Below, piece after piece: positions 3,661 to 60,975 of a DNA stretch of 64,000 nt (the stretch's first letter is position 1; each line of letters begins with the position of its first letter). A program made the position numbers and the translations under genes. The stretch covers positions 3,094,254 to 3,158,253 of the forward strand of contig JAJEKV010000052.1 in assembly GCA_021234155.1 (NCBI GenBank), in the 5' to 3' direction. Below the pieces are notes generated by a model that was not told the DNA's origin, did no database searches, and was given only the letters and a program-made list of their open reading frames with translations. The stretch comes from Isoetes taiwanensis (taxonomy: Eukaryota > Streptophyta > Lycopodiopsida > Isoetales > Isoetaceae).

Positions 3661-3689
3661 GTCCCCATTACTATGCATTGCGGCAGTAC

Positions 3690-28697: not shown

Positions 28698-28699
28698 TA

Positions 28700-34200: not shown

Positions 34201-35122
34201 ATGGCCATTACCAAGAGCGCTCCGGATCCGTCCACCATGAGCATCGTGGAGATCTACGCCATGATTGCTAAGCACATGGCTACTGACCCAGCCCTCATCG
34301 ACATCTTGTTGGATGAGTCGGTCAATAGGTTTGAGAACAACGATAGGATTCCATATCCTGTCTATCACTTCTCAGAGCCATTCCTCATCCGGCATTTGAA
34401 CCTACGCCAGCTCCCATATACCCTTGTTGAGCAACCTGATATGGTAATGATGCTCATCAAATTTTATCCTCCCAGCGGAAGGCCATACGAGGAGGAGGAA
34501 GATGTCGACTGAGGCCTAACCGTATTAGGGTTTTGCCAGGGAGGACGACCACCGGGAGATTGAGCGGGCTGACACAGCAGCTCGGGGTAGGGAGTACCGG
34601 TACCTCGGGGACGGCTTTTGGCCATTGATGGCGAGCTATTGAGGTTCCCCCATACCACCGGCATGAGGGTTCCAACGGCTTTGTCCGGGAGAAATCCCCG
34701 ACATTAGCATAGACTATCCGACAACTATTCAGATAGATATGGGTCTCGCGGCCACAACGGTACCATCGGCCCGAACTTAATCGCCGCGCCGCTTTGACCC
34801 GCCTTTTTGCCTCGGATCCAAGAAGACCTAAGGAGAGCTCGGAAAGAGCGAGAAGTTGGAGCAAGATGAGCGGGACCGACAAGATCAGCGGGACCAACAG
34901 GGAGGAGGTGCATCTGGGAGTGGCTCGAACCCAAAACTGACGCATCCGACCGTTAAGCTCCGGAGGAAGGGAGTTGGCCATAAGGCCGGCAGTCAATACA
35001 AGGATAAGTTAAGGACTGTCGGGGCTTTTGGGAAGAAGACCAGCTCCGACCGGAGGCAGCAGAGAGTGGATAACTCCCGGCCGGTTGCTGGGGCTAAGAC
35101 GGTGCCAACATCGTCGGGGCCT
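34201..35122 (+). CDS. Extra ORF 1, N-terminal part (unknown domain and basic linker)
   Basis: I do not recognise this part. The ATG at 34,201 is in a good context (GCTATGGCC) and opens a 104-codon frame (MAITKSAPDPSTMSIVEIYA; YPVYHFSEPFLIRHLNLRQL). Coding-like sequence continues in shifted frames: REIERADTAARGREYRYL, then QEDLRRARKEREKLEQDERD, a charged helix. A long basic Ser/Thr/Gly-rich stretch follows, with KLRRKGVGHKAGSQYKDKLR and KKTSSDRRQQR. It leads straight to the insertion point of the nested transposon. Directly beyond that transposon the sequence resumes as histone H3, so the basic stretch may be an extended histone-type tail. That joining is inference. Confidence 0.55.
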
Positions 35123-35143
35123 GCACAAGGCACCCAAAATTAA

Positions 35144-35540
35144 AACACTACATGGTTTTTCCTATGGTTATGACTATAAAACCATTCTACAAAACCAATG
35201 GGTGTTTGGGGGTAAATTTCATTAAAAACCATATGTGGCTAAACTACTTGGGTTTTCTTGTAGGATTTGTTAAAGTGGTATTATGGCATAGTAATTGCAA
35301 ATGGCTATTATGTAGTGTTTGTCAAAGTGGTATTATATGTTGGTAAACGGTATGGTATATATATAATGTTTCATGAGCACGGTTTGTTAATGTGGTATAA
35401 CGTGATGGCTCTGGACATGGTTTAATGTAGTGCTCTTTTCATGTGATTTTAATGTGGTGGCTATTGTGGTAAAAGTAGCATGGATAATTTTCATGGTAAA
35501 TGCACACGGTTTTCAATGTGTTATATGCAATAAAGCATCA
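35144..35540. repeat. Left subterminal TGGTTT repeat region
   Basis: Frequent ATGGTTT, GTGGTAT and ACGGTTT words occur at irregular spacing. The region is reciprocal to the AAACCAC-rich block at the other end. Confidence 0.6.
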
Positions 35541-36337
35541 GTATTTAATCGGTCAAAGTGTTTCGGTTATTGTCTTAAGCACTGTTATGTTTATCAAACT
35601 TAGATGTAATTCTTTTTTTCCTAAATGTCCGTGGTTTTGTAACCCATTACGCCTATTGTTATCATTTATAAACTAGTATCAGTTATTATCTTAAGCACTG
35701 TTATGTTTATCAAACTTAGATGTAACAGTGTTTTTCCTAAATGCGCATGATTTTGTAACACATTACGCCCATTGTTATTATTTATAAACTAGTAACCTTA
35801 TCTAGTTTAAAGCATTTGAAGTTACTAGTCTAAAGCATTTCAATTACTGCATAGAAACCATGGCGATCTTTTTCACTCAAGGTGTACTTGTAAGGTTGAC
35901 AAACCACTAACGATTTCTAGTCTTAAGCTTCTTAGGTTACTGCATAGAAAGAATGGCGATCTTTTCGCTGAAGTTCTTACAAGAATCTTGTTCTGCAAAA
36001 ATTACGGAGCCAGGGGATTTGAACCCCAACCATTTCCAAAACTCTTAAAGAATGATAAATTTATTTCCAGAAATATGCAGCAGCTGCTTTGAGTGCTCCA
36101 AATTTTGAGCTAATCAAGATATATGCATTCTGCAGATTTTGTACGACACCAAGATCTAAGGTTAGTCGGCTTAAGTTGGCTTACAATATGCGAGCTTGAT
36201 ATTTGATGGCTTGGACAATTTGGTTATTGTAACAAAAGAGTCGTCAACTCTAAATTCTGCAGAGGCAACGCATTAATTGAGTATCTACTAAAAGTATTGC
36301 TACGCAATTGAAGTTTTTCTAAGCAGAGATTACCAAC

Positions 36338-37671
36338 CTAATTGTCAAATCGAATTCCAAGACTTTGTAACTGCATCTCAATTGTACTGGCCCATTCCTT
36401 GTTGGCTTTTGGATTTGCAGGACTTGGATGCATGATTTCACCGACTCTGACATTAGTTGAAACACATTTACGAATTTCCTTCGCTGCATACTGCCCTGTT
36501 ATACCAATTAACCACGACTAATAAGCAACTAAGGAAGGAGAGTATAAAGAGTTCCTTCTCCCAATATGAAAAAGCATATGGTCAACTGCTTCAGTATAAT
36601 TTAGATACTATTGGCAACATTCTGATGCATGCCCAGTTTCATCAACAGACTATTAATTACAGAAACATGCCCAACCATACCAATCCAAATGATGTTGATT
36701 ACCTGCCAAACAAGTCCAAAGATGCAATTGGATGCTTTTCCAAATAAAATGCAGGTTATTCTCAACAAGTGTTACTGGGATGCTACATACCAATCCCAAC
36801 CACCGAAATAGGTTGTAGAAGTTCGATGGTTTTAGAAAGTGCATGGTTGCAAATGCTATTTATCACTTTTCGTTCTGCAGGCTTCAGTTGATTGGGAGTA
36901 CGATTCCTGTAAAAAGAATACTCAGATTATACTCTGCAAACAGATATTCCATACAAATTCCCAACAAATATTAACAGGAAAAAGGTCAGTGACATATTGG
37001 CAACATCATGTCTTAATGGGAAGACTTGAGGCTTTGATACATAGACAGACAGCAAAAGGCCACTGTAAAATTGAAGAATGACTTGCATAGACTGAGATTT
37101 CTTTATTAACTTAATAAGAGGAAGAAAATATGCAAGTTTCTATTCAGTTCAGTAACTTACTTGCCTGAAGCCTCCATAAACATGAGAGGACAATAGTTGT
37201 ATACCCAGAAGAGCTGAAAAAAATTCCCAGGAGTATGGAACTTCTCCTTTACCCATCCCTAGAGGCGTTGTCCACTCACCTAGAAGTAAAAATCTTCTGG
37301 AGATAAGAAGGGTCGCACCAAAAATGTAAAAGGATAGTTAACTCTTCGATCTCATGAGCTTAGTCCCATTAACTCAGAATTTTAATGGCATAATTTCGAC
37401 CCAGAGATCCATAAGGAACATATGATGTATGATTAATCCTTGAATCATTCTATCTGAACAGTCCAGGCACCTAGCATTCATTACTTTGAAGAGGCAAAGT
37501 AGGGTAAAAAGGATCCTTGCAGAAATATCCCTAACACCAGCTTATTGGTTATTGTAGTGCTGCTTTACCTGTCTAAGCACGAAATTAATGCCAAAAAAAT
37601 GTAAAATGTTAACCTCTCTCCTTTGACAATTGAAACCATGAATAGGCCGTTTTGGATGAAGTAGCTTTGGG
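36338..37671 (-). pseudogene. SMUG1-like uracil-DNA glycosylase fragment with introns
   Basis: Four exons on the minus strand join with GT-AG ends: 37,671-37,614 (LLHPKRPIHGFNCQRRE), 37,279-37,161 (VSGQRL, stop, GWVKEKFHTPGNFFQLF and NYCPLMFMEASG), 36,906-36,791 (NRTPNQLKPAERKVINSICN and VVGIG) and 36,495-36,338 (QYAAKEIRKCV and VGEIMHPSPANPKANKEW, then a stop). Order and spacing match SMUG1, the family-3 glycosylase of base excision repair. The catalytic-loop histidine in HPSP is kept. One in-frame TAG replaces an expected Trp codon (37,263-37,261). The exon with the NPGP catalytic motif is not found, so this is a truncated, probably dead copy. Retained introns show that it was captured as DNA, not as mRNA. 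Confidence 0.86.
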
Positions 37672-37939
37672 CTGCCAACCTGCCGGTATAGGGCACAGTT
37701 ACGAAACACAGTAATACTACATGGTCAAACTGAAACCAGGATAATATAACCACTTTGACATAAGTTTGACTATGCCCATAATATAAATATTTTGATCTAC
37801 AGAACTAATATAACATTTTTTGAATCACTTGATACTGCAAAAAACAAGGATACATAAAATAAAACATGCAACAAAACTTTAAAATTTGGAATATTTGGAA
37901 AACAACAAAAGATCACGGGTTAGTTTTCTACCTTGGGAT

Positions 37940-38500
37940 GAAGAAAGCAAATGTGAGAGTCTGCTAAGATTTGCCAAAGGAAAACCCCCATCGCCTGTGT
38001 AAAAAATGGAAAACCTTCATTCACCTGTGTGTAAAAAATGGAGCTAAGGCGGAAAGCATTTGTGCTTCAGAAAACTTTAAATGCATTAGCTAGATTGAAG
38101 AGCCATTCCTCACAGCTATAGATTTCCGACGACTCCTGCATACCAAAGAGAGCTGCGAATCCATTAAAAATCATAAGTAAAAAAGACCTAAAGGGTCCTA
38201 ACAGAAAAACCTTAGGATGTCGAAAAGCTGCCATGAATCGCCAAGGATTTGCAACTCCATCGTTGTTTCTTGAAAAGGGTCGGAATGGCCAGTTGAAGCA
38301 GGTTATCTAGTGAATCTTTGCCATGCAGGGCTGGTTGCGCAGACGCTTCCATCAGATCCGAGCTTCTACGCATCCAAAGTATCAGATCGGATATGTTCTG
38401 ATCAAGGACAGAAAAGCCATGGGCGCCATGGCTATGGCATCCGAGCCTCTGTAAGGGCAAAAAAATGAGCGGGAGAAATAATAATAAAACCAAATAAGGT
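37940..38500 (-). other. Possible upstream exons of the SMUG1-like fragment
   Basis: A 93-codon minus frame (38,493-38,212) contains SSDLMEASAQPALHGKDSLD and could encode the poorly conserved N-terminus of the same gene. I could not find the NPGP motif between it and 37,671. Assignment is tentative. Confidence 0.3.
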
Positions 38501-38536
38501 GGGAGAAATAAAATAGAACCTTAAATTAAAAAAAAA

Positions 38537-39182
38537 GGGAAAGTTACCCAAATGCCCTTGTGGAATGCAGATATTCCTGGAATGCCCATGCAAGATAAAA
38601 AATGCCCAAAATGCCCTTTGGGCGGCAGAGGCTTGATATATATTATCTCTATCTACTCAAACAAAAATCAAATTGATCCCTTGTTTTTGAATTCCATTTG
38701 CATGTGAATAATTTTGTTTTTTTATCAGGTTATTCCTCGAAGATCATGGCTAGGGCTTCTACTAGTATGCATGAGTTAATTTTTTAAAATTGTATAATTG
38801 GTTCCGGCAATCCGGTTAGAAAATGCCATTTCAAAGTTCTGAATTCTGCTAGGTCTGACGGTGGAGCTTCGAATTGGTCGAAAATTCTAGTGTTGATTTG
38901 AATTACTATGATCTTGTTGGGTTTTTGTCTGATCCTAATCTCTGATATAAATTTGGACATGGAGAACGAGGCATGCTGCAACGCAAGAAACCCACGAATT
39001 TGAATCAGGCCGTAAAACCCTTTGTCCCTTGTATTTAGAACCGGATCGTGGAGCTCTGTCTAACTCTACTCGCATCTCTACTCTGCCCATTGCGTGTCCA
39101 AAGGGCATTTTGGGCATTTTTTATCTTGCAAGGGCATTCCAAGAATATTTGCATTTGGCAAGGGCATTGTGGTAACTTTCCC
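38537..39182. mobile_element. 646 bp MITE with ~95-100 bp terminal inverted repeats
   Basis: GGGAAAGTTACCCAAATGCC... (38,537-38,630) recurs inverted at 39,081-39,182, including AAGATAAAAAATGCCCAAAA and CCCTTTGG. Both flanks are A-rich (eight to nine A on the left, six on the right), so a target duplication within poly(A) is likely but not resolvable. Long TIRs suggest a Mutator-like origin. Confidence 0.85.
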
Positions 39183-40280
39183 AAAAAACAAATCAATAAC
39201 CAAAAAGATTTTCGGCATTCTTTTGAGCCATTTCCATCAAAATTTCTAGGGTTTTTCGGGTAACTAAATACAATATTTTAAGTATTTTTGATAGTTTCAA
39301 TTATAAGCATGCATTTTTACTCCTACTCTACCCATCCTAATCGCTTTTTTTTAGCATCACAAAAAAACAAAGACCGTTCATTCAACCATTAAATCCTAGG
39401 AGAATTTAACCGTCGTACCCGTGGCAGAGAAGCGGGGGAAAATTGAGCAGAGAAGAGAAGCAAGAGACTCTGCGGGTTGCGGGATATGTTGGTTGCTTCT
39501 GCTTTCTTCCTTCCGTTCAACCTTCTGACCTTTTACCTTCAACAAACCATCGTCTCTTTTATTTTTCCTTGTTCACACGGCAAAGTCATGTCAGGCTGTC
39601 CTAATGGTCAGATAGAACAGAAGCAGATTCAGCAGCCCCAGATCTGCTTCAAGACCTCTAGATGCGATGCACACCTACAACTTATAATCGATAATTGAAT
39701 CCCCGGATATTCAAGGTGGGTTTGCTCACCTTTTATTTGGTAGTTTTCAACCATTAACATTGTCATTGCCTTATTTTAAAAGTAAGGCAATTATATTGCC
39801 TTATAAATTGACTTCACTCCCCATTATCTAGAAGAGAATCTAGAAGCAGTAGCATCAAGGCAATACCTAATCTAACGATGTTGGTGCGCCACAATAATAT
39901 ATACTAGATAAGTGCCCAATAGCACAAATTTTCTTTCCAAAGCTTACATGACATCTAGATATCTAGCATGTGCTATAGTTCCTAGTGTTATAACATCATA
40001 CTATAAAAGCATGCTAGCTTACACTAGTCACATGATGCAACATCGAAGGAGAGGCACTAAGGAAAGCTAGAAGTGCATTTGGTATCTTTCAAGAAAGAAT
40101 CTTTGAGATTCTGCCAAAGAATTCTATAATGTGCCTAATTTGCAGCTTGTGACGGAACAATGGAGGATGTTTTAATTGTTGTAGACATCAAATTGTCCCT
40201 TAACCATATGTCAAGTGGAAAAGTCTGATATTCTCTAGATATGGCAATCGAGCTTCTCAGATGGGGTCAGGACATAATTG
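39183..40280. other. Transposon interior, nothing recognised
   Basis: A/T-rich DNA with no supported gene. The short frame at 39,477-39,698 has no known domain. Confidence 0.4.
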
Positions 40281-40289
40281 TTGAGGATA

Positions 40290-40670
40290 ATAGAACTCTT
40301 TGATGGTATGTTGCAGCATGTTTTTCCATGAACCGTGGGCGCTAAATAGGATTATTCCCATCCATAAAGTTGGGGATAAAGGTTGTATGAAAAATTATAG
40401 AACCATCATGGTGGTGAGCAGTATGTTGGTCAAATTGTTTGAGGTAGTTTTGGAAATGAGATTGGGAAGTGGACGTAAGGGCAAAATGTCAGAGCTAGGG
40501 GACATAGTGGTTTTCGTCATGATCATTTAACCACGGATCATCTAGTCACTTTAAGCATAGTCATGGAAGGATCCAACGGAGTTGGTAATGCACTATTTTG
40601 CTGCTTCGTCGATTTTACGAAAGCATTTAACCGAGTCCTGAGGAGCAAATTAGGAGTCATGAGACTATAA
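40290..40670 (+). mobile_element. LINE reverse transcriptase fragment
   Basis: Translation gives RIIPIHKVGDKGCMKNYRTI and VKLFEVVLEMRL. After frame changes it gives TTDHLVTLSIVMEGSNGVGN and FVDFTKAFNRVLRSKLG. These are the NxRxI, template-contact and motif A regions of a LINE RT. Motifs B and C are absent. It belongs to a different LINE lineage from the 14-20 kb element and is a dead relic. Confidence 0.82.
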
Positions 40671-42224
40671 AATATTCCAGCCATACCATTGAACTATTAT
40701 ATTATGCCAAGAATAGACATGCATGTCAAGTATTTATAAATTTGGTGTGGCAAAATTTGGGTGTAACATAATCCTCACACCGGCCCAAATGGTATAAAAT
40801 TTCAACAAATAGTATCTTTTGAGGGTAGGAGATGTTTCAACATATAACATATGGTCCCTAAAGCAACACTGTGAGGTTGTATAGTCTCGTCCTTCCTGAA
40901 GTGGTGAATTGGATTGTCACTCTAAATACCTTGATCCATACACCACACTTGCGAAGCCCAAACTAACTAAAATGACCTAATAACATGAAGCCTATAGTTC
41001 AATGCTCAAACTTTTTCTTTCTTAGGCAAATTCTTGAAGCTATAAACCATTTTCTAGATAATTTTTCGTAAATATTCTAGGGAAACCATACCATTGAAAT
41101 ATTATATTACACCAAGAACAAACATGCATGTCATTACAAAATTGTTCTGGAAAAGTTTGGGCATAACTTGATTTTTGGATCCAAATGGTAAAAATGTCGA
41201 ACAAATGGTGTCTTTTAATGGTAGAATATTTTCCAATCAACAGATAACATACTATTTCTAGAAGCAATTGAAGTCAATGCTATGAGGTCGTATATAGTCT
41301 TGTCTGAATTGGTGGATTGGATTATCACTCTAAATCTCTAGGGTACATTTTGATTCATATGCCACATCTACAAATGTTTCAAACTAATTAAAATAACCTA
41401 ATAATATAAAACCTACAGTTCAATGCGCAAATTTTGCTTTTTTGGTCTAGTGGCAACACACTAGTTCTAGCAACTACAGGTGTCAAGTTCTAGACCGCCC
41501 AAAATCGTACTCTGAACTGTTGGGCGTCAAATCCCATAGATGCAATGTAAAGTGGTTGGGGGCAGGGCCCAATCGAGCAATGTAGTGTGGTGTGTGGTCA
41601 CATGTCCACTTGGATGATGTCTAGTGGCGTGACGTTAAAACAACTATCTATCTTTCTTGAGGCAAAATTTTAAAGCTGTATCTATTTTCTAGACAAGTGC
41701 AAACATATGTTACAATAAAAAAGAGAACCACAACAAAGCTCAAACACAGAAGGAGACTATCACTTTTATGTTGGGGCACTTGCCTTCATTGAGTTCTACT
41801 TTGAGAGTCCATTAAGGACTATATTTGACACCCAAAAGTTACATTTTGTAAGTTTATTCACATTTGTTAGGAATTGATGCCAAGGCTCATTTTGTTCATT
41901 GATTTAACTACCATACCATTGCCTTATCAAAAAGACATGAGGAGGTTCATTGGACGTGTTAGAGCTTCCTTGAAGTCATTTGTTGCTTTCATTTGTTATT
42001 GATGATTCTTCATGTAAATTATATCATTGATATGTGCTCGTTTTGGTTGCTAAATGTAAAAGGCCTTATGCTCCATCTTAGCACCAGGTTCCGTCATAAT
42101 CATTCTTTGCATGTCATTAAGATGCATATGTAGTATCATGTCATGGCTACTCCAGGACTATTATCTATTTGATTGTCTAGTAAGCTATGCAATCACCTAG
42201 TTCCTTAAATGAAGAAATCTATTG
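40671..42224. other. Transposon interior, nothing recognised
   Basis: Two loosely similar segments (about 40,680-41,000 and 41,090-41,420) share CCATACCATTGAA(C/A)TATTATATTA and GGTGGATTGGATT-like words, an old internal duplication. No gene is seen. Confidence 0.4.
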
Positions 42225-42237
42225 AAGACATTGTTTT

Positions 42238-43532
42238 GATTTTGAACGGATGAAGCAGCAAAGCGGCAGCGGCTAGGTCGTCTGCAGGAGAGGCTACCGC
42301 CGCTTCTCCTTGCCTTCGGATCAGCAGCGAAGCATGGAGAGGAGATTCTTGGGGATGGTGTCCAGGCCAGGACATTCTTTTGCGTTGAGATTGGTCCTTC
42401 ACAAGTTTGTTCCAGGTTTTCTTGAGATGTAACCTGTAGGCGATCTTCAACTTTGTTTCTTTTTTGCCGTATTAGTTCATTTCTTCCTTGCAGCTGTTGA
42501 TGGATCCAAAAAAGATTTTTCTACGGCTGGGTCGACCTGGGATTGATTGAAAAATATAGGCTGAATTGATGCAAATTGAAGCAGGTTAAGTTCTTGAGTT
42601 CTTTCTGGATAAGCTTATTTAAAGAAATACAATCTTGAAGTGATTTAGAATGTTCTGGTTTATTCTTTTCTGCTGGCGGAAAGACTAAATTTATGGTTCA
42701 GAGAAAGATCAGGTACTTATGCAGTTTTGGTCTTCTTTAGTATGTAATGCAAGTAGGTTGAATGGATTAGGCCGAGCTAGGGTTTTGCTGATATCTATAC
42801 ATCTTGCACCGGGCTTTAAAGGGAGGAGTCTGGCGGCTGGGCATATGCTTTGTCTAGCCAGCTTCAGATTGAAAGCTTACCCCGATAATGCAACATCAGA
42901 TCCAGTTTAATGTACAGGATAATTTGCTTGCTTATGATACGAGAAACTAGAATTCAAGAAGCAATGGCAGCTTCTATGAGCAGAGTGGCAGGCTGCTCTC
43001 CTAACACTGATCTATACTTTTCTTTATCATATTTTTAGTATCATGGTATGAGTAATGCAGCTTGGTGATAGGGCTTGTCCACCTATCCCACTTCCAATGT
43101 TATATACAGGTAGAAGTAATGGTGGTTGTTTCATGTTGTCTTCTGCATATGGTCGAGGATGTATGGGCTCCTTGATCTACATACAGTTGAGGATGTATGG
43201 GCTCCTTGATGGATAATGGAAGTGGAAGACGCCCTCTACAAGGTGACCCTTTCGTCTTGATTCAGAGGATACTGAAAGGTTCTGTGACCTTTATCTGATA
43301 TCTCTTTGGTTTTATTGCTGCTCAATTCAATAAGTTTCAGTTCATGGAGAGTGAAGATGTTGAGGTTTCTCCTGTAGTAGTCCTCTATGAAAGTTGAAGC
43401 ATTATATTTTGTACTTTTCATATATGTGCAGAAATACTTCCTATAAGATCCATGTGGGATCGTTGATGTAATTCTTCCTATCATATGAATAAAAAAGCAG
43501 TTCCGTTCCTTCAAAAAAAAAAAAAAAAAAAA
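42238..43532 (+). mobile_element. Poly(A) retrocopy with 13 bp target duplication
   Basis: A 1.3 kb insertion ends in an A21-22 tract at 43,513-43,534, with AATAAA at 43,488-43,493, about 20 bp before the tract. AAGACATTGTTTT flanks it on both sides (42,225-42,237 and 43,533-43,545). These are the marks of LINE-mediated retroposition of a polyadenylated transcript. No protein is recognised in it, so the source could be a non-coding RNA or a UTR-rich mRNA. The long uninterrupted A tract and perfect duplication point to a recent event. Confidence 0.85.
43153..43216. repeat. Short tandem duplication in the retrocopy
   Basis: GAGGATGTATGGGCTCCTTGAT occurs twice, about 35 bp apart, inside the retrocopy. 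Confidence 0.8.
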
Positions 43533-43879
43533 AGACATTGTTTTAATATTATCCAAGTGTTCTCATGGATTAATATCACCTTTTTGGTGCACCTTGCACA
43601 TACATTAAAGGGGACAATCTCGAAATCTATTGTTTTAGAATCATTGGGCACAAAAAATGTCCCAATTATTTGGAACTTATAGTAAACTTCATGATCTACT
43701 ATCAAGATTATGATTGTCGAATGTATTAAACTAAGACAACACTGATCAATTATAAAGGGCTTGTCTTGAATGCTTGTAGAAGGTATACTCATAATTCCTT
43801 AAAATATAAACTTTCATAGCATATGTTTAAGTAATAATTTAATTTACATCATGGAATGCATAATATCTATTGAAGTTTA

Positions 43880-44500
43880 TGAATAAGCACTATGAATAAC
43901 CACCCTTTTGGTTGGGAATTATAAATAACCACCATGCAAATTAAATTGGTATGGAAACCCATGCTACGAACCATAATCGATTTTTAGTAGACAATTCTGC
44001 AATTGAAAACAAGCATGAATAAGCACTAGATATTTATATTGGTAGTAAAAACCACCTTGTAAACTAAATTAATTTTAATAAACCATACTACAAAAGAAAA
44101 CCAATGTGGTCCACTTAAATAATAAATAATTTTGGCAATAGAAAACCAACATGAATAACCACTAGGTATTTAAATTGGCAGTGAAAACCACCTTGCAAAC
44201 TACACTAATTTTAGTAAACCATACTACAAAAGAAAGCCAACGTGGAAAATCATCGTCTCGCATTGAAAAACCATACCATAAACCATTACCAACTTAATAG
44301 CCCATGTTGTATCAATAAACTAACAAGAAAACCACGCTAGAAACCATTATCAATTTGAATAAACCATGTTGCAACAAAAACTAGCATGAAAAACCACATC
44401 CTGCTTATAAAAACCACTATAATGTGTGGTTTCTATTAAGATTATTATTTTTTGTATAGGTAACCACATGTACAGTGGTTCCTTAGTGGTTAATTACGGC
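43880..44500. repeat. Right subterminal AAACCAC repeat region
   Basis: AAACCAC, AAAACCA and AATAACCAC words recur every 15-40 bp up to the right transposon end. Larger internal near-repeats occur around 44,030-44,235 (AAACCACCTTG(T/C)AAACTA). Confidence 0.75.
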
Positions 44501-44525
44501 AGTTAAATTTTAAGATGCCTTGTGC

Positions 44526-44846
44526 TGGGCCACAGCGGAAGCCTCATCGGTTCCAGACCGCATGCGGGTGGCATTCGCGGGAGATCCGCCAAATTTTAGA
44601 GGTCCACGGACCTTCCGGATCGTGAAGTCGCCTTTTCAGAGGCCGGTATGGGGAGATCGCGACAAAGAATTTAAGACCGATCTCCGTTTCCAGACCTTTG
44701 CAATTTTGGCGCTCCAAGAGGCTGCTGAAGCCTACTTGGTAGCACTTTTTGGTGATGCCAACCTTTGCGTTATCCACGCAAAGAGGGTCACCATAATGCC
44801 TAAGGATTTAGCCCTCGCCCGTAGGATACGGGGGGAGCAACCTTAG
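44526..44846 (+). CDS. Histone H3 fold, C-terminal part of extra ORF 1 (frame-disturbed)
   Basis: The C-terminal 60 residues are unmistakable H3: [20 protein letters not shown], then [20 protein letters not shown], then [16 protein letters not shown] and the stop after QP. Upstream, in neighbouring frames, lie RKPHRF, REIRQ and LPF-like PFQRPV. That accounts for the alpha-N and alpha-1 region with two or three frame slips. Residues of the four-helix H3-H3 contact (Cys and His in NLCVIH, Asp in MPKD) are kept. There is no enlarged loop 1, so it is nearer canonical H3 than CENH3. The normal ART-K tail is absent, and the sequence abuts the nested transposon instead. Several slips coincide with expected CAG/CTG words. 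It lies on the element's coding strand, upstream of gag. Confidence 0.88.
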
Positions 44847-45085
44847 CCTACTTGCGGGGATCCGCGTTTGTACATATTTTTTTTGTGATAATTAATAAAA
44901 AGGCTTTTATTTTGAATTAAAAGTTTAATGTTTTTTTTAAAAATTTAAAATAAAATGCTGACGTCAACTTTAATAAGAGGGTTTAAAGGAATTTTGTGAA
45001 GGTTATTTTAAACGCTTCTTTTCCCTCTCCTCCCTTCTAGCGCCATGGCATACGCCGCCCGTAACCTTCTCCGCACGGTACCTTG
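44847..45085 (+). other. A/T-rich spacer between the extra ORFs
   Basis: The region consists of T-runs and A/T-rich DNA. CTTCTAG/CGCCATGG near 45,036-45,047 could be a splice acceptor or the start of extra ORF 2. Confidence 0.35.
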
Positions 45086-46424
45086 ATGGAGAGAAATGGG
45101 ATCCATTGTGTTCCCTTCGACTGCTTGACCTTTGCTATGCCCACGCGATAGATCTCCTTGCCAACATGTAATGGCATCCGGACTACGCCGGATTCCTTGA
45201 CTTTACATGGAGGAAATGCTTCCCTCTGTGTATTCCTCACGGGGATCCTCCCCACTTGTATTTGGAGCGGGGAGATAGTTCGACAGATGCTAGGCGGGGA
45301 CACACATGCTTATGATGTCCCGAAGGAGAAACTCCGATGGGGTAAACACCTACCGGTGGTCCAAAGATCGAGGGGCGAAGATCTGGAAGCTACTTTTGCT
45401 CTAGCCATCCTCATGGACCAATACGTTGAGGATGAAATCTTGCCGGCGCAGAGAAGGGCGGGGCTACGAGAATCCTCCGAGGAGGGGGATGACGAGCATA
45501 TAGGAATGGGCGACTTTGCGTTGGAAAGAGCTAGCGAGAGGAGCTACCACCGCCGCGTGACCAATCTATAGGCTTGTCGGGGTTAGACGGCCTTCCAATT
45601 ATTTATCACCGAGGCGGGAATACCTTCTCTTGGATGATTATATCCGGGCGTATCACGTGGTGGCGGATTTCGCGCGAAAAGCGCAAAGACCATGTACTTT
45701 ATGAGCTTGCGGAGTATTGTATGGATGATTTCATCGACTTCACTTCTACCGAAGCTTCCTCGGGAGGTGCACGGTACCGCTTGATTCGGGCCGGGGAGAC
45801 CCTAGAGCCGCGCGGAGACTCTATTACGTCTTCGCGACTGGTGATGCGAGGAACCCGCCCGCCTCCGCACGGATGCCTTCACGGCTATGGGACCTCACGC
45901 CCCAAACATTAATATGGTTGAGGTTCCCTCCGGCTCCGGATGATGAGGGTGAAGATTTATACCATAACCCTGCGACAAGAAGGAGGAGCAACGGGGAGCT
46001 CAAGGAGGAAGAAGTCCCCATGGACTTGGATAAGGAAGTGGCAAAGAATCGAGACCGCATGGGAAAGTCTTTGGGTAACCACCTTACCGTTTCTTTTTTG
46101 TCGGCCCGACATGGACAAGTCCTCTTCATAGCCCGAGATCTAGGGCCGGAGGTGAAGCTTCATGGTGGGCCCTCCGGTGCAATCTCTACACCGGCCGGCC
46201 CCACAAAGCTTCCCTATCGTACGTTTACGTATGTACTCGTACGACGGGATCTTGCCCTGACGGCCTTGGGTCAGGACATTGCGCCTTGGATGGGCATGAA
46301 GCTCCTCACGGCAGCCCCATTGGCCGTTGCCTATCCACCGGAGGTTGCATCCGCATTTGCGGCCGCCACGGTAGACCACAGGGTTACTCTGTATGATAAC
46401 CTAATAGCCTCCACCACCTCCTAG
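45086..46424 (+). CDS. Extra ORF 2 of the large chromovirus (unknown protein)
   Basis: I do not recognise it. Coding-like sequence runs through three frames: about 45,086-45,571 (FLTGILPTCIWSGEIVRQML; EATFALAILMDQYVEDEILP), about 45,574-45,912 (HVLYELAEYCMDDFIDFTST) and 45,873-46,424 (PPAPDDEGEDLYHNP; TFTYVLVRRDLALTALGQDI, ending STTS and a stop). Composition is ordinary soluble-protein with an acidic middle. It lies between the H3-like ORF and gag on the same strand. Extra ORFs upstream of gag are known in some plant Ty3/gypsy lineages, but I see no similarity to those. Confidence 0.5.
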
Positions 46425-46581: not shown

Positions 46582-46699
46582 TTTCTAGTTTTATATATTC
46601 ATATATGTGTGTTGCGGGATTTTTTCGCTTGGCAATTGAATGGACCATATTGACAAATGGTGTACCTTACTTACTTATTAAATACAAAGTTCTCTTGAG

Positions 46700-47550
46700 G
46701 AGTATTATTGAATTGTGTTTTTTATGACATCCTCTTCAAAAGTATTAAAACTTTAGAATATAATGGAATTACAAAATGTTCTCTATTTATTCCAACTATG
46801 TTGGAGGAAACCATTTGGGAATATGAGGAGAGAATGCCCGATATGGTTAGGAGGGACGATCAGGGCCTTGAGACGGGGACTATGGCCAGAGATATGGTGA
46901 ATACCCGTGAGTGGGAGGAAGGCTATGAAACCGAACCACCGCCACCGAGGGAACTCTAACGACCACGACAAAGGGCTGGAGATAGTTAACATCCTCGGGG
47001 ATCGAGCTTTTCGAGGATCCGAAGATGACCCCGCGGTCGCACAGGACCTCTTGGAATATGACCGTGCCACGAAGCCGAGGGCGCCAAAGCGACCATCTTT
47101 GGCAACTCTTTTATGCGTCGAAGGCTCTTTAACCTTCGATTATCAGCCCAACATGGGAGTACCAAGCAATCATTGTCCAAGCACGCACACGCTATAAACT
47201 TCGTCCGAAGCCATGCGGGAGAGTACCGCTTCGTGATCTCAGTACCCTTCGCCAACCCCTAGGCTTGGTCTCTTCCGTTATGTTTTCGTTGTTGTGGTTC
47301 TTATTGTGCAAATAGAACTTTAAAAGTTCCCATTGTATCATACCTACTTTTGTCTCAATCCATGTATCAATCAACCCGTTGTTGTACTCAACTTGAATGA
47401 AATACAAATATTGTTTTACTGTTTGTATATACTTTTGTCTCGATTAATTTAAAAGGGATTGTACATTAATGTAAATGCTTATATTTTCATAAATGGTTCC
47501 TATAGGCGGTTAATGCGTAACGCAGCCTTTGGCAAACACCCTCCAACGCC
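46700..47550 (+). other. Possible further coding traces before gag
   Basis: Frames at 46,798-46,959 (LEETIWEYEERMPDMVRRDD) and 46,907-47,197 (VNILGDRAFRGSEDDPAVAQ) look like protein-coding composition but match nothing I know. They may be the N-terminal part of gag or a third extra ORF. Confidence 0.35.
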
Positions 47551-47569
47551 CGGAGGGTCACCCCCCGAA

Positions 47570-48710
47570 CAGAATTGATGTTAATGAAAAGGCAACTTCG
47601 GCGAAGTTACATGGGCTTATGTGTTGCATACCAATCCACCGCCACATACTCGGGAGGGCCGGACCGGAATTACCTCCCGACCATTGAGTCCACTCACAAT
47701 GACCATCTCCTCCCGAGCTAGCCCTATACGTACATAAAGGAGGACTCATACTAAGCGTCATCGGTTCCTCTAAGGATAGCGCCGCTTGCTCACATTCAAC
47801 CGCCGGGTTCTTAGGATCCTCGCTATCGGACAATGACCATTCAAGGCGTAAGGATAAGGAGTACAGAAAAACCGTTGATAATCTGACCATCACTAGTATA
47901 TGGAAAAACCGGAAGTTGGCTCGGGGTTTGATGGGAAATCCGAGGAGGAGGCTTGAATGCGGAATCTTGGTTGGACGAAATGAAGGAATTGGGAAGTCCT
48001 ACGGAATGACAGAGAGAAAGATCTGAGGGGAAGGTCGCCACCACAAACCTTACCGGAGCTGCCTGTATTTGGTGGAAGGGTTACGCCCGAGCTAAGCACA
48101 CGGACGAGGGAGTAGATGCAAGTTCAAGAAGTTCGCTAAGGCTTTTAAATCGCATTACGTGCCTCGCGGCGCACAAATGCCAATGTATGAGACCTTCTAC
48201 TGGGTTGGAACAGAAGGGCATGTCGGTGCAGGCCTACAGCTCATTTAATTCATGCGTTTGAGGTTGTATGTACCGGGAATGAATGAGAAAAGGGCAAGAG
48301 AGGGCTACATTGAAGGATTGGCCCCATCCATTAAACGTATGGTCAAGGCCATAGACCCAAAATCGATGCAGAGGCGGAAGCTAAGGCATTAAGCCTTGAG
48401 GAAGACACGCCAAAGAACAAAAGATCCGCGACACATTTCCTTACTCGCGCCCACGGCCCGTCCACACCTTACAAACCCCGTTCGCTAAGTCCAGGGGCCC
48501 TCTCTCAAAGACAATTCTTATGGCCGCCAGAGAAGAAAGTCGCCTTTAGCACGGATAAGCGAGAACAATGCTGGTAAGGAAGTTCGGGGCCTCTTAAGTC
48601 CATTCCTAAGGAGGCCGTGAGAACAGCTCCACGGGATAAGGCATGCTGGGGTGCATGAGGCCTGGACACTTCATTAATTGTCCGCACGCCACGCCAGATC
48701 GCTCAACCGC
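47570..48710 (+). CDS. Gag of the large chromovirus (frameshifted)
   Basis: Pieces of a Ty3/gypsy gag are spread over frames: a capsid signature TGAACIWWKGYARAKHTDEG (about 48,050-48,110), KAFKSHYVPRGAQM, RLYVPGMNEKRAREGYIEGL and ALSLEEDTPKNK. A zinc knuckle lies near 48,640-48,690 with C-X2-C-X4-H-X4-C (CWGC, MRPGHF, INC) if one missing base is allowed. Confidence 0.75.
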
Positions 48711-48929
48711 CATGGCCGACCTGGATTGGGAAGATTTGGAGTCCAATCTTGCTGCGGAGGACGAGGCTCCCGAGAGTACATTCATGGTGCGTCTCATATT
48801 CTTGCCGCTATAGAAACAGTAACGTTGAAAGTCGATATACATTATTTCTACAATAGGCCAAGTAGACAAGTAAGCCCTTCATAATTTTGATGGACACGGT
48901 AGAAATACGCATAATTTTGCTTCTCCTAG

Positions 48930-49310
48930 AATGGCCGAATGCTACCGTTTGAAACGCGTTGAGATCCCTAAGCCGGTCACATTAGCTAGCGGTAAGATCG
49001 CGGACACACTCATGGCCGTCGTATTAACCTTAAAATCACGGTTTGCCGGGTGCACCCGGTTGCCTTGGGTGCGAATTAATGGACATTGGCAAATATGATC
49101 TTATTGTGGGAATGGAGTTTTTAGCGTCTGCGGGGGCCCACATAGACTGCCCCGGAGAAACGGAGGTCACCTTCAACGCCGCTAATGGAGCACGTGTGAC
49201 GATAAAAGGTGATTCATTACACTCCGCCATGCAGTCAATCTCAATAAAGCAGTTAGGGAAAGCTATACGCAGGAATGAACTCCTTTGCCTCATTAAACTT
49301 CGCTTCCATT
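48930..49310 (+). CDS. Aspartic protease region of the large chromovirus
   Basis: PKPVTLASGKIADTLMAVVL is followed by MDIGKYDLIVGMEFLASAGA, the C-terminal half of the Ty3/gypsy protease fold. The active-site D-S-G segment lies in the damaged stretch around 48,880-48,930 and is not readable. Confidence 0.7.
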
Positions 49311-49329
49311 GAGTCGGACTCCAAACGGC

Positions 49330-50145
49330 GACAAGTAATCGGCGCTTTACCATCGGACATTGCTACCCTTCTTCGAGAATTTAGCGATCTTTTTTCCGGA
49401 TGAGATCCACAAGCTTCCTCCTTCGAGAGGGGTGGAATGTGAGATAACTCTTGAACGGTACTAAGCCTACCAGCAAAGCCCCTGACGAATGAGTCCTCGG
49501 GAGTTAGCGAGCTTAAAGCTTGACTACAAGAGTTCTTGAATTTGGGGTTTATTCGCCCAATGTTTCACCATTTGGCTCCTATTCTTTTTGTCAAGAAGAA
49601 AGATGGCTCCTTAAGAATGTGTATTGATTATAGGCAACTCAATAAGCATACCATCAAGAATCGCTATGCTTTGCCTAGGCGAGATGATCTTATGGACCCG
49701 ATTACAAGGAGCAAAATATTTCTCAAAGATTGATTTTGCTCCGGTTACCATCGGATAAGGATTAAGGGAACAGGACATCCATAAGTCCGCTTTTCGTACC
49801 GGATATGGGCATTATGAATTCACCTGTCATGCCTTTTGGATTGACCAACGCCTACCAGCGTTTATGCGGTTGATGAATGACATCTTCCGCCAATACTTGG
49901 ATGACTTTGTTGTCATTTTCTTTGATGACATTCTCATCTATAGTAAAACCTTGCAGCAACATGAACAACATCTTCGATTAGCTTTGCAAAAGCTAAGGCG
50001 CCATCGACTCTTTGCCAAGTTCTCTAAATGCAAGTTAAGCCACTCGAGGGTAGACTATTTGGGGCATATTGTCTCAGAAGGAATTGCTACAGACCCAGCT
50101 AAGATAGAAGCGGTAAAGGATTGGCCCATTCCGCCTAATGTTTGA
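49330..50145 (+). CDS. Reverse transcriptase of the large chromovirus
   Basis: Motifs in order across frames: [59 protein letters not shown], a damaged motif A region around 49,730-49,850, then [18 protein letters not shown] (catalytic Asp pair) and YLGHIVSEG. Frame breaks at about 49,500, 49,735 and 49,850. Confidence 0.9.
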
Positions 50146-50720
50146 GAGGTCCGAGTTTCTTGGGACTCGGGGGATATTATCGGAAATTTGTTAAGGATTT
50201 TGCAACAATTGCCGCACCTCTTACTAATCTCACAAGGCATGAGAAAGTAAAGGATTGGATGGAACATTGGAGAACAAAAGTCCAAGTCGGCTTTCAGAAG
50301 CTCAAGGATGCCTTAACATCCGCACGGTCCTTACCTTGCACGATCACGAAAAGGACAAAGCGGTAGCCACCGACGCTAGTAAGATAGCTCTTTGGTGGAG
50401 TTCTAATGCGGGAGGGGAGAGTTGTTGCTTACGATTCAAAGAAGATGAGCGATCATGCGAGCAGCGATATCCTACCCATGACCAGGAGTTCTTTGGCGGT
50501 TGTTCGTGCTCTCCGTATTTGGAGACACTACCTTCTTGGTAGAAGATTTCAGCTGGATACGGATCATCGAGTCTCAGCTATTTATCCACCTACCAAATCT
50601 CAATCTACGTCGGCCTTGAGATGGATGGAATTCCTCGAGGAATATGACTTGAGATTGTATATAAACCGGGGAAGCACAATGTGGTTGCGGATGCTTTGTC
50701 ACGTCATCCCTTCATAACCC
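50146..50720 (+). CDS. RNase H of the large chromovirus
   Basis: SFLGLGGYYRKFVKDFATIA (RT-RNase H connection) is followed by VATDASKIAL, VVRALRIWRHYLLGRRFQLD and TDHR, then RWMEFLEEYDLRL. Catalytic acidic residues of the Ty3-type RNase H are visible in broken frames. Confidence 0.85.
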
Positions 50721-50724
50721 GCAC

Positions 50725-51845
50725 CCATTGTAATGCCATTTCCACACTCACTCACCGAGTTTGGGAAGCAAATAGAAACAGACCTTGCCCACAGATCGAA
50801 TTCTCAGAATATTTGGGAAAGTTTGGGTAAGGAAGCCCGTCTCGATAGAGAACGCGTGAAGCATTCCGTTCATATAAGAAGGAGGACAAATTATTATATT
50901 ACAAAGATAAGTTGTGTGTTCCAAATGACTTGAGGGGTGCAAAAGTTCGATTCTCCATGATACACACAATGACCCTATAGCAGACATGCGGGTTTTATGA
51001 AAACTTACTTTAAGATCCGCTCCGGCTATTTTTGGCCTTCCATGAAGAAGGATATTGCTAGGTACATCAAAGCGATTTGTGGGGTTTGTCGACAAACCAA
51101 GGCCCGAGCAATTAAGAGTTCGGGGAGTTGCAACCTTTAGATGTGCCCAACGCCAAGTGGGAAGTCATAACCATGGATTTCATTGTGGGGCTTCCCGCAC
51201 TCTCGTGGGTATGATGCCTTAATGGTGGTAATTCGACAAATTATCAAAGATGGCTCACTTCACGCCATGTCGCACCACCGGACACCGCCCATTACACAGC
51301 CTTGCTCTTTGCAAAGGAAATTTTTCAGGTTGCGGGATGCGAGAGTAATTGTATGGGATAGGGATCCTAAGTTTGTCGATTGCATTCGGAAGGATTTCTT
51401 CGCCACCATCGGACCAAGCTTGCCATGAGTACGACCTACCATCCTCGGACGGATGGTCAAAAGCGAGCGTGTCAATCATTATTATCGAAGATATGCTAAG
51501 AAGCTATGTATGGAGTAAACGGTCACAATGGGCGGATTATATTTACTTGGTAGAATTAAGCCTACAACAATACAAAGCGGGGAGTCTTCTAGAATGTCTC
51601 CCTTCATGATAAATTATGGCTATCAATGTCTTACTCGGACGCGTGGCATAATCTGTTTCTAAAGTGGAGGTCTCTCAACAACTCCTTCTAGAAATGGGGG
51701 GCCTTGGTGGAAGAAGTTGAGGGGTTACTTATTGGCCGCGACGCCGCGGTCGTCGAGGAAAGAGTCTAGCGGATAAGCAGGACCCCACCGAATCTTCCAG
51801 TGGGCTTAATCAGTTTGGCTTAAGATCAAAAGTAAAACAAGCCAA
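50725..51845 (+). CDS. Integrase of the large chromovirus (zinc finger and core)
   Basis: HAGFMKTYFKIRSGYFWPSM and ICGVCRQTKA give the HHCC zinc finger. DFIVGLP-like, VIVWDRDPKFV and a garbled TDGQ-SERVNHYYR segment give the catalytic core. At least five frame breaks are present. Confidence 0.82.
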
Positions 51846-52406
51846 GCTTAAAATTGGTAAGCTTGAAGAAGTTGGCACCCGGATGGCTGGGCCGTTCGGG
51901 ATTGCGAGCGTGTGGGAGAAACAGGCATATCGCTTGGACTTGCCACCCCGCTTTGAAAATCCACAAGGTCTTTCCGTGGAGTCTTACGAAGCAACACACC
52001 CACGATCGAGAGGAGGTTTTGGATACCCCTACCCTCCACGGAAATGGCCGAAGAGCAACTGGAGATAGTGCGAAGCTCTTCTCGATCGAGCTTACAAGCG
52101 GACGGAAGGACTCAAATGTTGCAATACTTGGTCAAGTGGAAGCACTTACCAGTTGAAGATGCTACCTGGGTGATGAAGATAGACCTTGAGAAGCACTATC
52201 CGGACTTCATGCGGGAATCTCAAGGCCGCACCATCAACGATGCTATCAACCCCGCTCCCGGCGGTAAGCTTGAAGGCTTGATTGACCGAGAATCATGTTT
52301 TAGAGGGGTAGACGCATCGTATATGATAATAATAACCGATGATGAGATCACCGTGTTCTCTAGGACGTGGTTTATTGTTGATGTTGACATGACCGCGAAT
52401 TGCTAG
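51846..52406 (+). CDS. Integrase C-terminus and chromodomain
   Basis: GPFGIASVWEKQAYRLDLPP and SVESYEATHPRSRGG form the C-terminal integrase region. A chromodomain follows at 52,110-52,215: MLQYLVKWKHLPVEDATWVM, with the aromatic residues expected for methyl-lysine binding (Y and W in YLVKW, W in ATW). It marks the element as a chromovirus. The frame ends at 52,406. Confidence 0.9.
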
Positions 52407-52937
52407 AAAGGCATCTAGTAAATAGACTGTGTTCATTCCGGCTATACGGGGAACTCCACCATTCCTTATGCCACAATGAATTACAAACCGTACACATAAT
52501 AGATTCCCTTCTAGATATTTTTTTTCTTTTAATTGTAGGGGGTGGTCCCTTCAACCACAACTTAATCATATTATTAACCTACGGGTATATGGTTGTGTGC
52601 AGGCCAGTGAACAAGTCGTCACCTGCCTTGTATAGAGGGTTGCTGATGACCCAACTTTTCCCGTATTGGTTTTGTCTACATGTGTGATTTTTGCTCTCAG
52701 AATGTTTTAAATGGGACTTCGGTCCTAAACTCCCTTGATCATAAGTTTGTATCGGGCACCCTGGTGCTTGTACTTTGATATTTTAACTTCAATGTATTCT
52801 TGTCCAGGCTTACTATAATCTCAGCGTATTAATGTTATATTCTTACTTCATTTTCTAATTGATTGCTTTACTACGTATATGTATTCAATTAGCTAACCCC
52901 AATCTTTGAGGACAACAATATTTTTAGGAGGGGAGAA
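52407..52937 (+). other. 3' untranslated part and polypurine tract
   Basis: No coding sequence. It ends in TTTTTAGGAGGGGAGAA (52,921-52,937), the plus-strand primer, directly before the LTR. Confidence 0.8.
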
Positions 52938-54543
52938 TGTGACGTTCCATGTATTTATCACGGTCTACTATCACGGGACACGTACAAATACAAGCACGTC
53001 ACTCCATAAAATGCGCTACCATGGGGTATGGGAACTTAATTGCAACCTAGGGGGTTACCTTAAAAAGGATTAAATTAGCTATGCTAATTTAACACATTAA
53101 TAATAATAACCTATAACCTAGGAAATTAGGCTAATTACCATTTGGGAAGGCGCCACCTGCCCCAATCGATTGGGCAGCATGGGGATTGCCAAGTTTGGAT
53201 GCCAACTTGACCCCTATCCCTGGGATTGACTCCTGAAGATCGACCAAGGAGGGCCAGGAGCTGGGCGCCATCATACACTTGCAGAAGCTCACCATAACAG
53301 TCGTCCCTGTGAAGTAACAGCTGAATTCTCAACTCCCAGAAGATGGAGGCCCCATGGAAGCGAGTCCGGCCGTAATTCAGGTAGGTGGCTATGTGAATTC
53401 TAGTTAACACTTGGTTGTGTCCGTCTCTCTCTGTTCTCTTGGTGAATCAATCATAGAAACTAACCCTTGATTGTACAAACAAGTTCTCTTTATATTCAAT
53501 TCTTGTTCTTACTCTGAAAGGATGGATCGTTAGTTCTTTGTTTAGTCGACTCGAAAACGGGGGATTACGGGGGTAGAGGCCTCGACCGGTGTATTGTAGT
53601 ATGCTCCCTAGATGGCGCCTGCAGAGTCCCATTAATTGCGGCGTGCACAAGAACCCACCGGGTCCTAGATGCTATGGTGCTTAGCACCGGACAAGGAAAC
53701 GGTGGTGACATGAGGGGTGGGGTCTTGCATGAGCATACAAGGCTCCCGAGACTCCTACGAGTGGGCTAGGGCGATAGCCGGGTCTCGTTGAGGGCCGGGT
53801 ATGGGTCGACACTCCACAGGTGTAGTGGTGTGATCCGTATGGAGCACCATGCACTTTGAGTAGATTTAGGTGAGTAAGTCGGGATGCGGATCGCGGGGGT
53901 CGCTGATGCGCACGTATTCTCTAGCTCACCCATGGAACCACTGTGATTACGAAGGGGACGCCTCCCGACCTGCCTCATCGGACCCGGCGTCATGAACCTG
54001 GAGTAGGCTCGGGAGGGTGATGCCCCGAGTTTATGCGTCTCAGGAAGGCTATAGCAAAGCCATAGCATGAATTGACCCATCCGCAAAGTGTGCACGGGGA
54101 GGGGCGGATGGAGTGGACAACCCTAGCCAATGCTCTATGCCAGATAGCGCCATGCCAAGACTTCGGTCTGCTGATCTCTTGAGGCTCTGCCGTCGGTCGA
54201 TCCTCACGGAGTCCGAGCTGGGGTAGAACCGGATTACGGGTGTTTTCAGTAGGATTAGATGCATATTCTATGCGTTGGTATATTAGATGGATCGCCACCC
54301 TTTCGTGGTGGTTATTTATGTATATTCATCTTTGTGTGCTAACCCTTGTATTCATGCTTCATGACGTAGGAGTCCCCGGCGAAGGCGTGGGCGAATGACC
54401 CTTCGTGTCCTTCTTTCGGGCCTCATTTCATAGATGGACCGAAATAGACGGAGGGCCCTGCTCATGGTGAGATGATTGCCATGGGAGGGGAAAGTCCCCG
54501 TATGTATACGTCCGAGGGTCGTATATATTCTGGGAGCGTCACA
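52938..54543 (+). repeat. 3' LTR of the large chromovirus
   Basis: It is the same length as the 5' LTR to within two bases and ends GCGTCACA before the GCGTC duplication. More CAG/CTG words are intact here than in the 5' LTR in some parts and fewer in others. Confidence 0.92.
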
Positions 54544-54548
54544 GCGTC

Positions 54549-55574
54549 AATGCCAGTTTTTCCCATTTTACGATAGCTAGCATAAGATCCATATTAGCTT
54601 TCGCATAAGATGCATCTTTCAAGTTGTTTGGCTCACAGGCAATAAAACTTTCTTGTCTGCATTATTCTATGGCAAATCATCCACCAAAAAATGATGATGG
54701 ATACGTTTCTTCATTGGCCATATTCCAAAACCATATGTACATCTCTGCAATAGTTATAAGGCATCAAGTCAATGCATAAATTATAACTATATGTCATGCT
54801 TACTTTTCACGATGAACATCTTCCACGGCACCACTTGGTGACTAGCGATAGCGTGATATTAAAATATTCATCGACGGCGCCATACACCATGGAAGCGGTC
54901 GTGACATTTAGTGAATTGAACCATATAGAGTGGTATAAGTTAGACTTTGGAACGAGCAAAATGATAACAAGTGTTGTTCCATAGACATCTTAATTTGTTG
55001 CAAAATTATCAATACTTTGCTTTCATCTCATATGCAATGCGAGTCAACATTGCATCTTAAAGTGGCTTGTTTTGCAAAAAAAGCGGTAGCCGTGGTTGTT
55101 TAGCATTGATATTGCAAATTTGTCGAAATATTGTGGTCACTTTGCATTTCCGAGCTGCGGACTAGTTATTCATCAACAGTCAATGACAACCACCAAGCAA
55201 CTTTAGTGTAATCATTGCTGGTTATCCGGCCGAGAATATCGCTCTTTAACTCTGTTAAATTTTCTAGCACCACCAAGAAATCAAACTGATGGGTCTCAAA
55301 GGATTCCTTATTGTTAGAGACTTGCTTCGGACCCTTCCTTGATGTGCACTCATTGAACCCGGCGGGTTTCACACATTGAAGTGGGACTGAGCTCCTTCGT
55401 TTACTTTCTTGGATTTTGAACTTATCGGGGCGGCTTTCGGCCAGTATGGATCTTTTTGCGTTTACATCCTATTCGGAAAGATTCACATTATTCTTTTCCA
55501 TCTCCATCTTCAGTCCGAAACCCTTGGTTGAAAATGACTTATAGAACCAGTAGATGTTTTCAATGTGACCGGAC
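54549..55574. other. Unit A flank, non-coding
   Basis: It matches 60,976-61,995 of unit B. No gene is recognised in either copy. Confidence 0.6.
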
Positions 55575-60968: not shown

Positions 60969-60975
60969 GCGTCAA

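Follow-up and report, generated by a model that had tools for sequence, protein, structure and literature searches.

Can an LTR retroelement carry a core histone gene as part of its own coding capacity? The question arises from a 64,000-nucleotide stretch of the Isoetes taiwanensis genome (the window), in which an initial annotation had placed an almost complete histone H3 fold inside a chromodomain LTR element, on its coding strand between primer binding site (PBS) and gag. The fold (44539–44843) and this location were both confirmed. The host element is a chromodomain Ty3/gypsy LTR element (chromovirus). Its LTRs, at 31842–33448 (5′, TG...CA, + strand) and 52938–54543 (3′, + strand), are each ~1.6 kb and were delimited by self-BLAST, LTR alignment and comparison with other copies. 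Identical GCGTC target site duplications (TSDs) flank them at 31837–31841 and 54544–54548; the first of these, like the end of the 5′ LTR, was read beside 10 other copies. The PBS lies at 33451–33461 (+ strand; TGGTATC... in this copy, TGGTATCAGAGC in several others) and is presumably of the initiator tRNA-Met type. A polypurine tract (PPT) occupies 52926–52937 (+ strand). The empty site of the element is present in a neighbouring tandem host copy, near 60969.

The coding units of the internal region lie on the + strand. ORF A, the 5′-most long ORF recognised and separate from both gag and integrase, is found in two parts, at 34201–35123 and 44525–44846. The first encodes an N-terminal domain, a charged stretch and a basic linker, with a broken frame in the window copy; the second encodes the H3 αN and fold, from KPHR at 44539 to the stop codon at 44844–44846. 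ORF B (45045–46424, ~468 aa) is likewise broken in this copy, and is followed by the gag region (46600–48800, approximate boundaries, domains seen in copy L047) and by pol (48801–52403, frames broken). Reverse transcriptase (RT) and chromodomain pieces were detected by Pfam search in the window on the same strand as the H3, and the full set of protease, RT, RNase H, integrase and chromodomain was taken from copies L034 and L040. Copies L047, L034 and L040 together show gag with a capsid and the protease–RT–RNase H–integrase order of pol. The integrase C-terminal chromodomain matched PF00385 at 51957–52403 of the window (E 2.8e-7) and in L040 (E 6.6e-8). TG...CA ends, PBS, PPT and 5-bp TSDs were found in the window and in all seven other copies with two LTRs. 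The host surroundings (28267–31841 and 54544–64000) are a tandem array of a ~6.4-kb unit with PPR genes, one unit being occupied by the element and the adjacent one representing the empty site. A further array, with ~41 copies of a 19-bp repeat (CATGTTGGAGCCAACGTGG), was noted at 1–790.

The two parts of ORF A are separated by a 9.4 kb insert at 35124–44524, whose ends read CACAAGGCA.../...TGCCTTGTG and which is flanked by CTG, duplicated over 3 bp at 35121–35123 and 44525–44527. We take this nested DNA element to be CACTA-like; the similarity of its TIR-like ends is modest, being matched by 2 of 500 shuffles. It splits ORF A immediately ahead of the fold. The insertion site was uninterrupted in all six other copies compared, and the insert was absent from all ten copies fetched. 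The earlier proposal that a basic coding stretch had been cut off from the H3 by a nested transposon was thus borne out, as the two are joined in frame elsewhere. Its element length of 22.7 kb is inflated by the nested insert, which makes up 9.4 kb and leaves an element proper of ~13 kb. By eye, the insert also contains a non-LTR reverse transcriptase-like fragment near 40294–40667.

The H3 assignment itself is secure. The ORF at 44514–44843 (+ strand) matched the Pfam Histone family PF00125 (E 6e-22) and solved H3 chains in the PDB (E down to 6e-28). A frameshift-tolerant alignment to plant H3 covered residues 30–134 and scored 303, whereas none of 30 shuffled sequences exceeded 34. The αN/α1 half contains a single stop codon and six frameshifts, and residues 76–134 are free of frame breaks. 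A conservative-substitution test on the window H3 alone was not significant (0.08–0.12).

The window copy looks broken, through the CACTA-like insert and probably through assembly errors at CWG/CG sites. Of the 58 events in which its LTRs differ, 49 lay close to CG, where 28.9 were expected, and 41 close to CHG, where 20.0 were expected. Flanking host duplicates had the same bias (Y pair, CHG 69/81, 23.5 expected); another duplicate, at 24–28 kb, was without CHG bias (36/107 versus 36.2 expected). The host PPR copy beside the element retains 34 CAG/CTG sites versus 106 in its twin. Aligned to the 535-codon frame of that twin, it shows 20 frameshifts but no stop, and 35 of 514 residues are changed. 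We attribute this bias to systematic errors in base calling where CWG/CG sites are methylated; real mutation is the alternative. Such a reading agrees with the published assembly of the species, described in the available part of PMC8566536 as R9.4.1/Guppy nanopore with Illumina polishing (1658.30 Mb, 204 scaffolds and 909 contigs). Plant methylation likely lowers basecalling accuracy according to the accessible text of PMC9749173, where CHG is unnamed. The six frame breaks in ~105 codons of the window H3 come near the rate of the PPR copy (20 in 535). Residue changes are far more frequent than in that copy, so the divergence of the window H3 from host H3 is not due to error alone, a point settled by the other copies described below. 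Probable systematic errors at CAG/CTG and CG sites, seen as CWG depletion and stop-less frameshifts, span 28267–64000 of the window. Genes and transposons in methylated parts of the assembly may therefore look falsely broken.

Other copies were sought in the window's own genome (1.66 Gb; 1,658,258,908 bases, 1110 contigs), and every copy described here comes from that single genome. The H3 segment is repeated there at scattered sites: among the best 40 scored of 1422 first-look candidates, matches other than the window itself showed 89–92% identity and lay on many contigs. Thirty loci, chosen by similarity to the window H3 and including the window copy, were cut out. An H3 open from KPHRF to the stop was present in 24 (22 clean 99-codon folds and two with internal frame shifts). 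Seven had the whole ORF A open, from its ATG through the stop codon of the H3 (409–413 aa), and the other 23 did not; such intact-copy counts do not describe a random sample, since loci were picked by H3 similarity and later ones partly for long frames. Wider stretches were fetched for ten copies picked for long open frames. All ten contained a 5′ LTR (its start missing in two), a PBS, ORF A joined to the H3, and ORF B, and nine also had gag-pol together with all or part of a 3′ LTR. Internal gaps interrupt the gag-pol stretch of L035/L036 and L049/L050, and neither gag-pol nor a 3′ LTR was found within the stretch fetched for L043/L044. Across these copies Ty3 capsid, protease, RT, RNase H, integrase, SH3-like and chromodomain matches were obtained.

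All seven copies with both LTRs in hand had exact 5-bp TSDs and PPTs. Their LTR pairs differ by 3.2–7.9% overall and by 0–1.1% away from CG/CHG sites; being nearly alike there, they suggest young insertions. The family thus also exists without the nested transposon, and all ten such copies carry the H3 in the same place, fused in frame to the basic N-terminal part as one ORF. This outcome runs against the possibility, raised at the outset, that other family members lack H3 here. It also refutes the idea of an independent H3 retropseudogene landing in one element, an idea for which no evidence emerged and to which we attach a negligible probability given the shared position and joined frame in 10/10 other copies. 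Between H3 and gag, ORF B forms a second accessory ORF (3458–4861, − strand, in L037), open over 468–490 aa in four of the ten copies (L037, L039, L041 and L049). No Pfam family matched it. A below-cut-off similarity of its residues 165–194 to NCBIfam PRK10183 (E 8e-5) may be chance; the match to YdiE in the PDB had E 0.78.

The H3 is not confined to close relatives of the window copy. A genome search with canonical plant H3, considered over the best 150 scored of 8952 candidates, returned 15 places at 94–95% identity followed by a gap. Three of these were fetched, and were canonical H3 genes with complete tails. The other 135 listed places were of element type (72–87%), five with an internal stop and 45 in frames of at least 400 aa. 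Ten of them, with varied identity levels and mostly long frames, were fetched from other subfamilies, and in each an open frame of 367–484 aa ran into the H3 fold. The frame was open from the ATG in seven of these picked relatives (404–448 aa) and opened after the expected start in L056, L060 and L063. Over the 14 copies with a frame open from ATG, the ORF A protein measures 404–448 aa. Two deep ORF A groups were apparent, with 29–37% identity in the N-terminal part (E 1e-41 to 1e-52). The groups were compared as L054–L063 versus L016, with L068 and L069 also included. We read this divergence as fast evolution, which may reflect an arms race. The RT of L068, whose ORF A belongs with that of L057 to the second group, is 97% identical to the first group's RT. 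Module swapping between subfamilies, suspected from this identity, was unsupported, the RT pS also being high (0.54).

Places were also selected by RT rather than by H3. From the best 150 scored of 28801 candidates in a genome search with an RT piece, four places were fetched with 5 kb upstream, and three carried the H3 (open in L065 and L067, frame-broken in L066). In the fourth, L064, LTR sequence occupies the place expected for ORF A/H3; this locus could be a deletion derivative or contain a nested LTR. By coordinates alone, an ORF A/H3 place lies 2.5–12 kb upstream on the same strand for at least 45 of 150 RT places, versus one at the mirrored distance downstream; the pairing drew on the best 150 and 155 places, making 45 a lower bound. 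A search with the N-terminal piece of ORF A yielded 2507 first-look candidates, and 40 of the best 150 lay in frames of at least 400 aa.

The substitution pattern was next compared between copies and against host H3, as the initial annotation had proposed. The H3 fold gave a dN/dS of 0.075 (24 sequences, 232 pairs, two sequences being frame-shifted inside). For the seven full ORF A copies the value was 0.118 over the whole ORF, with 0.078 for the N-terminal part, 0.130 for the middle, 0.165 for the linker and 0.081 for the fold. In the 22 clean copies, 22 variant codons were synonymous (72.3 sites) and 8 were nonsynonymous (224.7 sites). Variant codons shared between copies were exclusively synonymous (9 versus 0; binomial p 2e-8). 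Within this first set, fold pS was 0.06 as against 0.18–0.22 elsewhere in ORF A, probably because the loci had been picked for their similarity in H3. Between subfamilies the fold showed pS of 0.76–0.89 and pN of 0.07–0.13, and against three host-type H3 genes pS of 0.84–1.03 and pN of 0.10–0.14; synonymous sites are saturated in both comparisons, and dN/dS there is an upper bound. The segment is hence far from the near-identical host H3 pseudogene considered initially. In a tree of 19 rows, the five host-type H3 rows fell on one side of a branch (support 98/94), and L067, found via its RT, was intermediate; one host-type row, from Brassica, is a chimera over the first ten columns, and nine of the 15 inner branches are weak.

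These data point to an old capture of a host H3, kept under purifying selection in many copies and several subfamilies, as synonymous sites are saturated while nonsynonymous differences reach only 7–14%. Capture from the host, as originally suggested, is supported by the copies, their shared position, the tree and the conservation. The suggestion had left a choice between recent capture and selection; selection stands (dN/dS ~0.08 in the fold) and recent capture does not, given the saturated synonymous sites. A single capture would be enough, and further captures may also have occurred. ORF A has the properties of an accessory ORF: many copies carry this additional frame at one position, and its dN/dS is below 1. 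Passive carriage of a functionless H3 fragment would fit the broken window copy, and plant LTR elements are well documented as gene capturers in the available text of PMC13317346, the transductions of maize Bs1 being a case of host coding sequence inside an LTR element. The Bs1 pieces described there are not full-length, unlike the element fold, which is kept across subfamilies at saturated synonymous divergence. Open frames in divergent subfamilies and a dN/dS of ~0.08 also speak against it, and neither dN/dS, variant codons nor pS/pN shows the neutral decay expected of such a fragment. We consider passive capture very improbable.

The ORF A protein begins with an N-terminal domain that is specific to the element and evolves fast; a charged stretch and a basic linker follow, and the H3 αN and fold form its C-terminal part. 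ORF A of L037 matched PF00125 with E 3.5e-41 and PDB H3 chains with E 4e-52, and αN, α1, α2 and α3 are all present with H3 residues. Identity to host H3 is 82–87 of 99 positions in the rows counted (85 of 99 between L016 and plant H3.3), and all 34 element rows agree with host H3 at 62 of the 99 positions. The seven residues that we assign to the H3–H3′ bundle are all unchanged in the 34 rows. Among 11 residues presumed to contact DNA, eight are unchanged, two are altered in one row each, and one shows K→R in six rows. CENH3/CENP-A also combines an H3 fold with a divergent N-terminal tail, and in this respect resembles the element protein; CENH3 is further marked by a loop-1 insertion and a divergent fold. 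The element folds differ from it in aligning gap-free over 99 codons with canonical host H3, at the identity and pN given above.

Within the fold, S86, E105, T107 and A135 differ from host H3 in 34/34 element rows, H87, G102 and I124 in 33/34 and V89 in 32/34. The chaperone site reads FAIL or FAVL in the element and HAIL in L067, as against HAVL or SAVL in three host genes. Changes at E105, T107, H87 and I124 could weaken chaperone binding. The altered chaperone-choice site (H87 and V89) speaks for integration targeting, where the fold would bind H3–H4 chaperones or H4 and so escort the pre-integration complex to chromatin that has just been assembled. As an address label, the fold would then have no need to stay in nucleosomes, and at 82–87% identity it would also suit chaperone binding without nucleosome entry. 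The element integrase already bears a chromodomain, and chromodomains are reported to steer integration (PMC9289625, available text). But ORF A is a separate ORF, with no fusion to integrase or gag seen, and chaperone binding alone would not need the DNA-contact residues, on our assignment, to be kept as well. We judge targeting rather unlikely.

The canonical H3 tail appears to have been replaced, in line with the earlier proposal. No similarity to ARTKQTARKS... beyond chance was detected ahead of the fold in nine of ten copies (shuffle p 0.18–0.84), the tenth giving p 0.04, and a tail was likewise unsupported by shuffles in the window copy. By eye, the linker had seemed to hold a conserved H3 tail, which these tests did not uphold. 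PDB alignments of ORF A extend into H3 residues 25–37. ARKS, the motif around H3 K9 and K27, occurs in the ORF A linker of L055, L061 and L063, away from the H3-tail place, as a possible histone mimic or by chance. Outside the fold, ORF A had no Pfam or PHROG match above cut-off, and no non-histone chain appeared among the best 60 of 184 PDB matches. Searches of protein databases revealed no relatives in other species within their scope. An N-terminal query, taken from a broken copy and so of limited reach, had 133 candidates, none of them with an E value as low as 0.1, and single-sequence structure prediction of the N-terminal piece gave a pLDDT of 51.6. Among proteins of up to ~193 aa, the best 120 of 7995 matches to a 110-aa H3 query were histone-type by names and Pfam rows; eight were inspected as sequences, and none was retroelement-like. 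For proteins of ~220–700 aa (best 120 of 4097), the top ones scored about twice a single H3. We take these for predictions with several histone copies, below which single-H3 fusions would rank. Viral contig scans found nothing.

In 12 copies the 80 residues ahead of the fold contain 21–28% K/R versus 4–7% D/E. Such a basic linker, in a long ORF upstream of gag, would suit a protein that forms a coat on the element's cDNA or RNA inside the particle or that uses the H3 nuclear import route, the histone fold serving as a nucleic-acid- or importin-binding module. However, gag has its own CCHC region (a weak Pfam match, in L047), and the kept H3–H3′ bundle residues, as we assign them, point to H4-paired tetramers. 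Packaging or import is in our view improbable, more so than targeting.

Our preferred reading, which we hold at about even confidence, is that chromovirus ORF A is an old capture of host H3 whose fold pairs with H4, enters nucleosomes and carries an element domain there. The protein would be translated from element RNA, its fold would pair with host H4, and host H3 chaperones would deliver it to nucleosomes, a route already proposed for single viral H3s. In place of the H3 tail with K4, K9 and K27, the nucleosome would then carry a domain belonging to the element. The benefit would probably be harder-to-silence chromatin on element DNA, or a chromatin anchor for element proteins during integration. 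More speculative, and held with clearly less confidence, is the version in which the retroelement places its own tail-swapped H3 variant on its own DNA and so obtains private, silencing-resistant chromatin.

Partly comparable systems are known. Gypsy elements of Phalaenopsis are likewise large plant Ty3/gypsy elements in which an extra ORF bears a host-type domain; the accessory in these orchid elements is an AlkB-like m6A demethylase and not a histone, and the domains named in the accessible text (CHROMO, PMD, AIR1, AlkB, G-patch, KOW, ArgoL2 and B3) include no histone fold (PMC9289625). Some additional ORFs of plant LTR retrotransposons are also in sense orientation upstream of gag-pol, although the most frequent known ones sit between pol and the 3′ LTR, unlike ORF A, and histone has no mention in the available text of that review (PMC7264820). 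Xenomavirus, DSLPV1 and Sylvanvirus, among others, likewise encode one H3-like protein, 73–87% identical to host in the fold (PMC9145170, available text, as for the following). Such single viral H3s, likely partnered by host histones, often have extended or divergent tails and altered chaperone sites (SAIL, TAIL). They belong to DNA viruses and not to retroelements, and their extensions amount to tens of residues, compared with ~310 residues including an own domain in ORF A (PMC9145170). The bracovirus protein CvBV-H4, said to be incorporated into host nucleosomes, is likewise a captured core histone in a virus-derived element; it is an H4 of an insect polydnavirus, unlike the element H3, and no word starting with 'retro' occurs in the available text of that review (PMC9145170). 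Among the papers listed by our literature search, neither titles nor abstract openings pointed to a retroelement with a histone fold, subscription papers being mostly outside its scope. As far as searched, the present element is a plant Ty3/gypsy element with an accessory ORF, whose histone accessory is unlike those found described.

Captured histones are thereby extended from DNA viruses to retroelements, as far as the literature searched shows. Hosts mark and silence transposons by way of core histones, and a lineage that kept a modified H3 until synonymous saturation has apparently found a use for it. This would permit a direct test of whether a mobile element can affect silencing or integration by supplying a nucleosome part. 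The chromodomain of these elements, in contrast, is thought to read histone marks rather than to supply such a part. Judged from sequence, these elements may themselves supply a component of chromatin.
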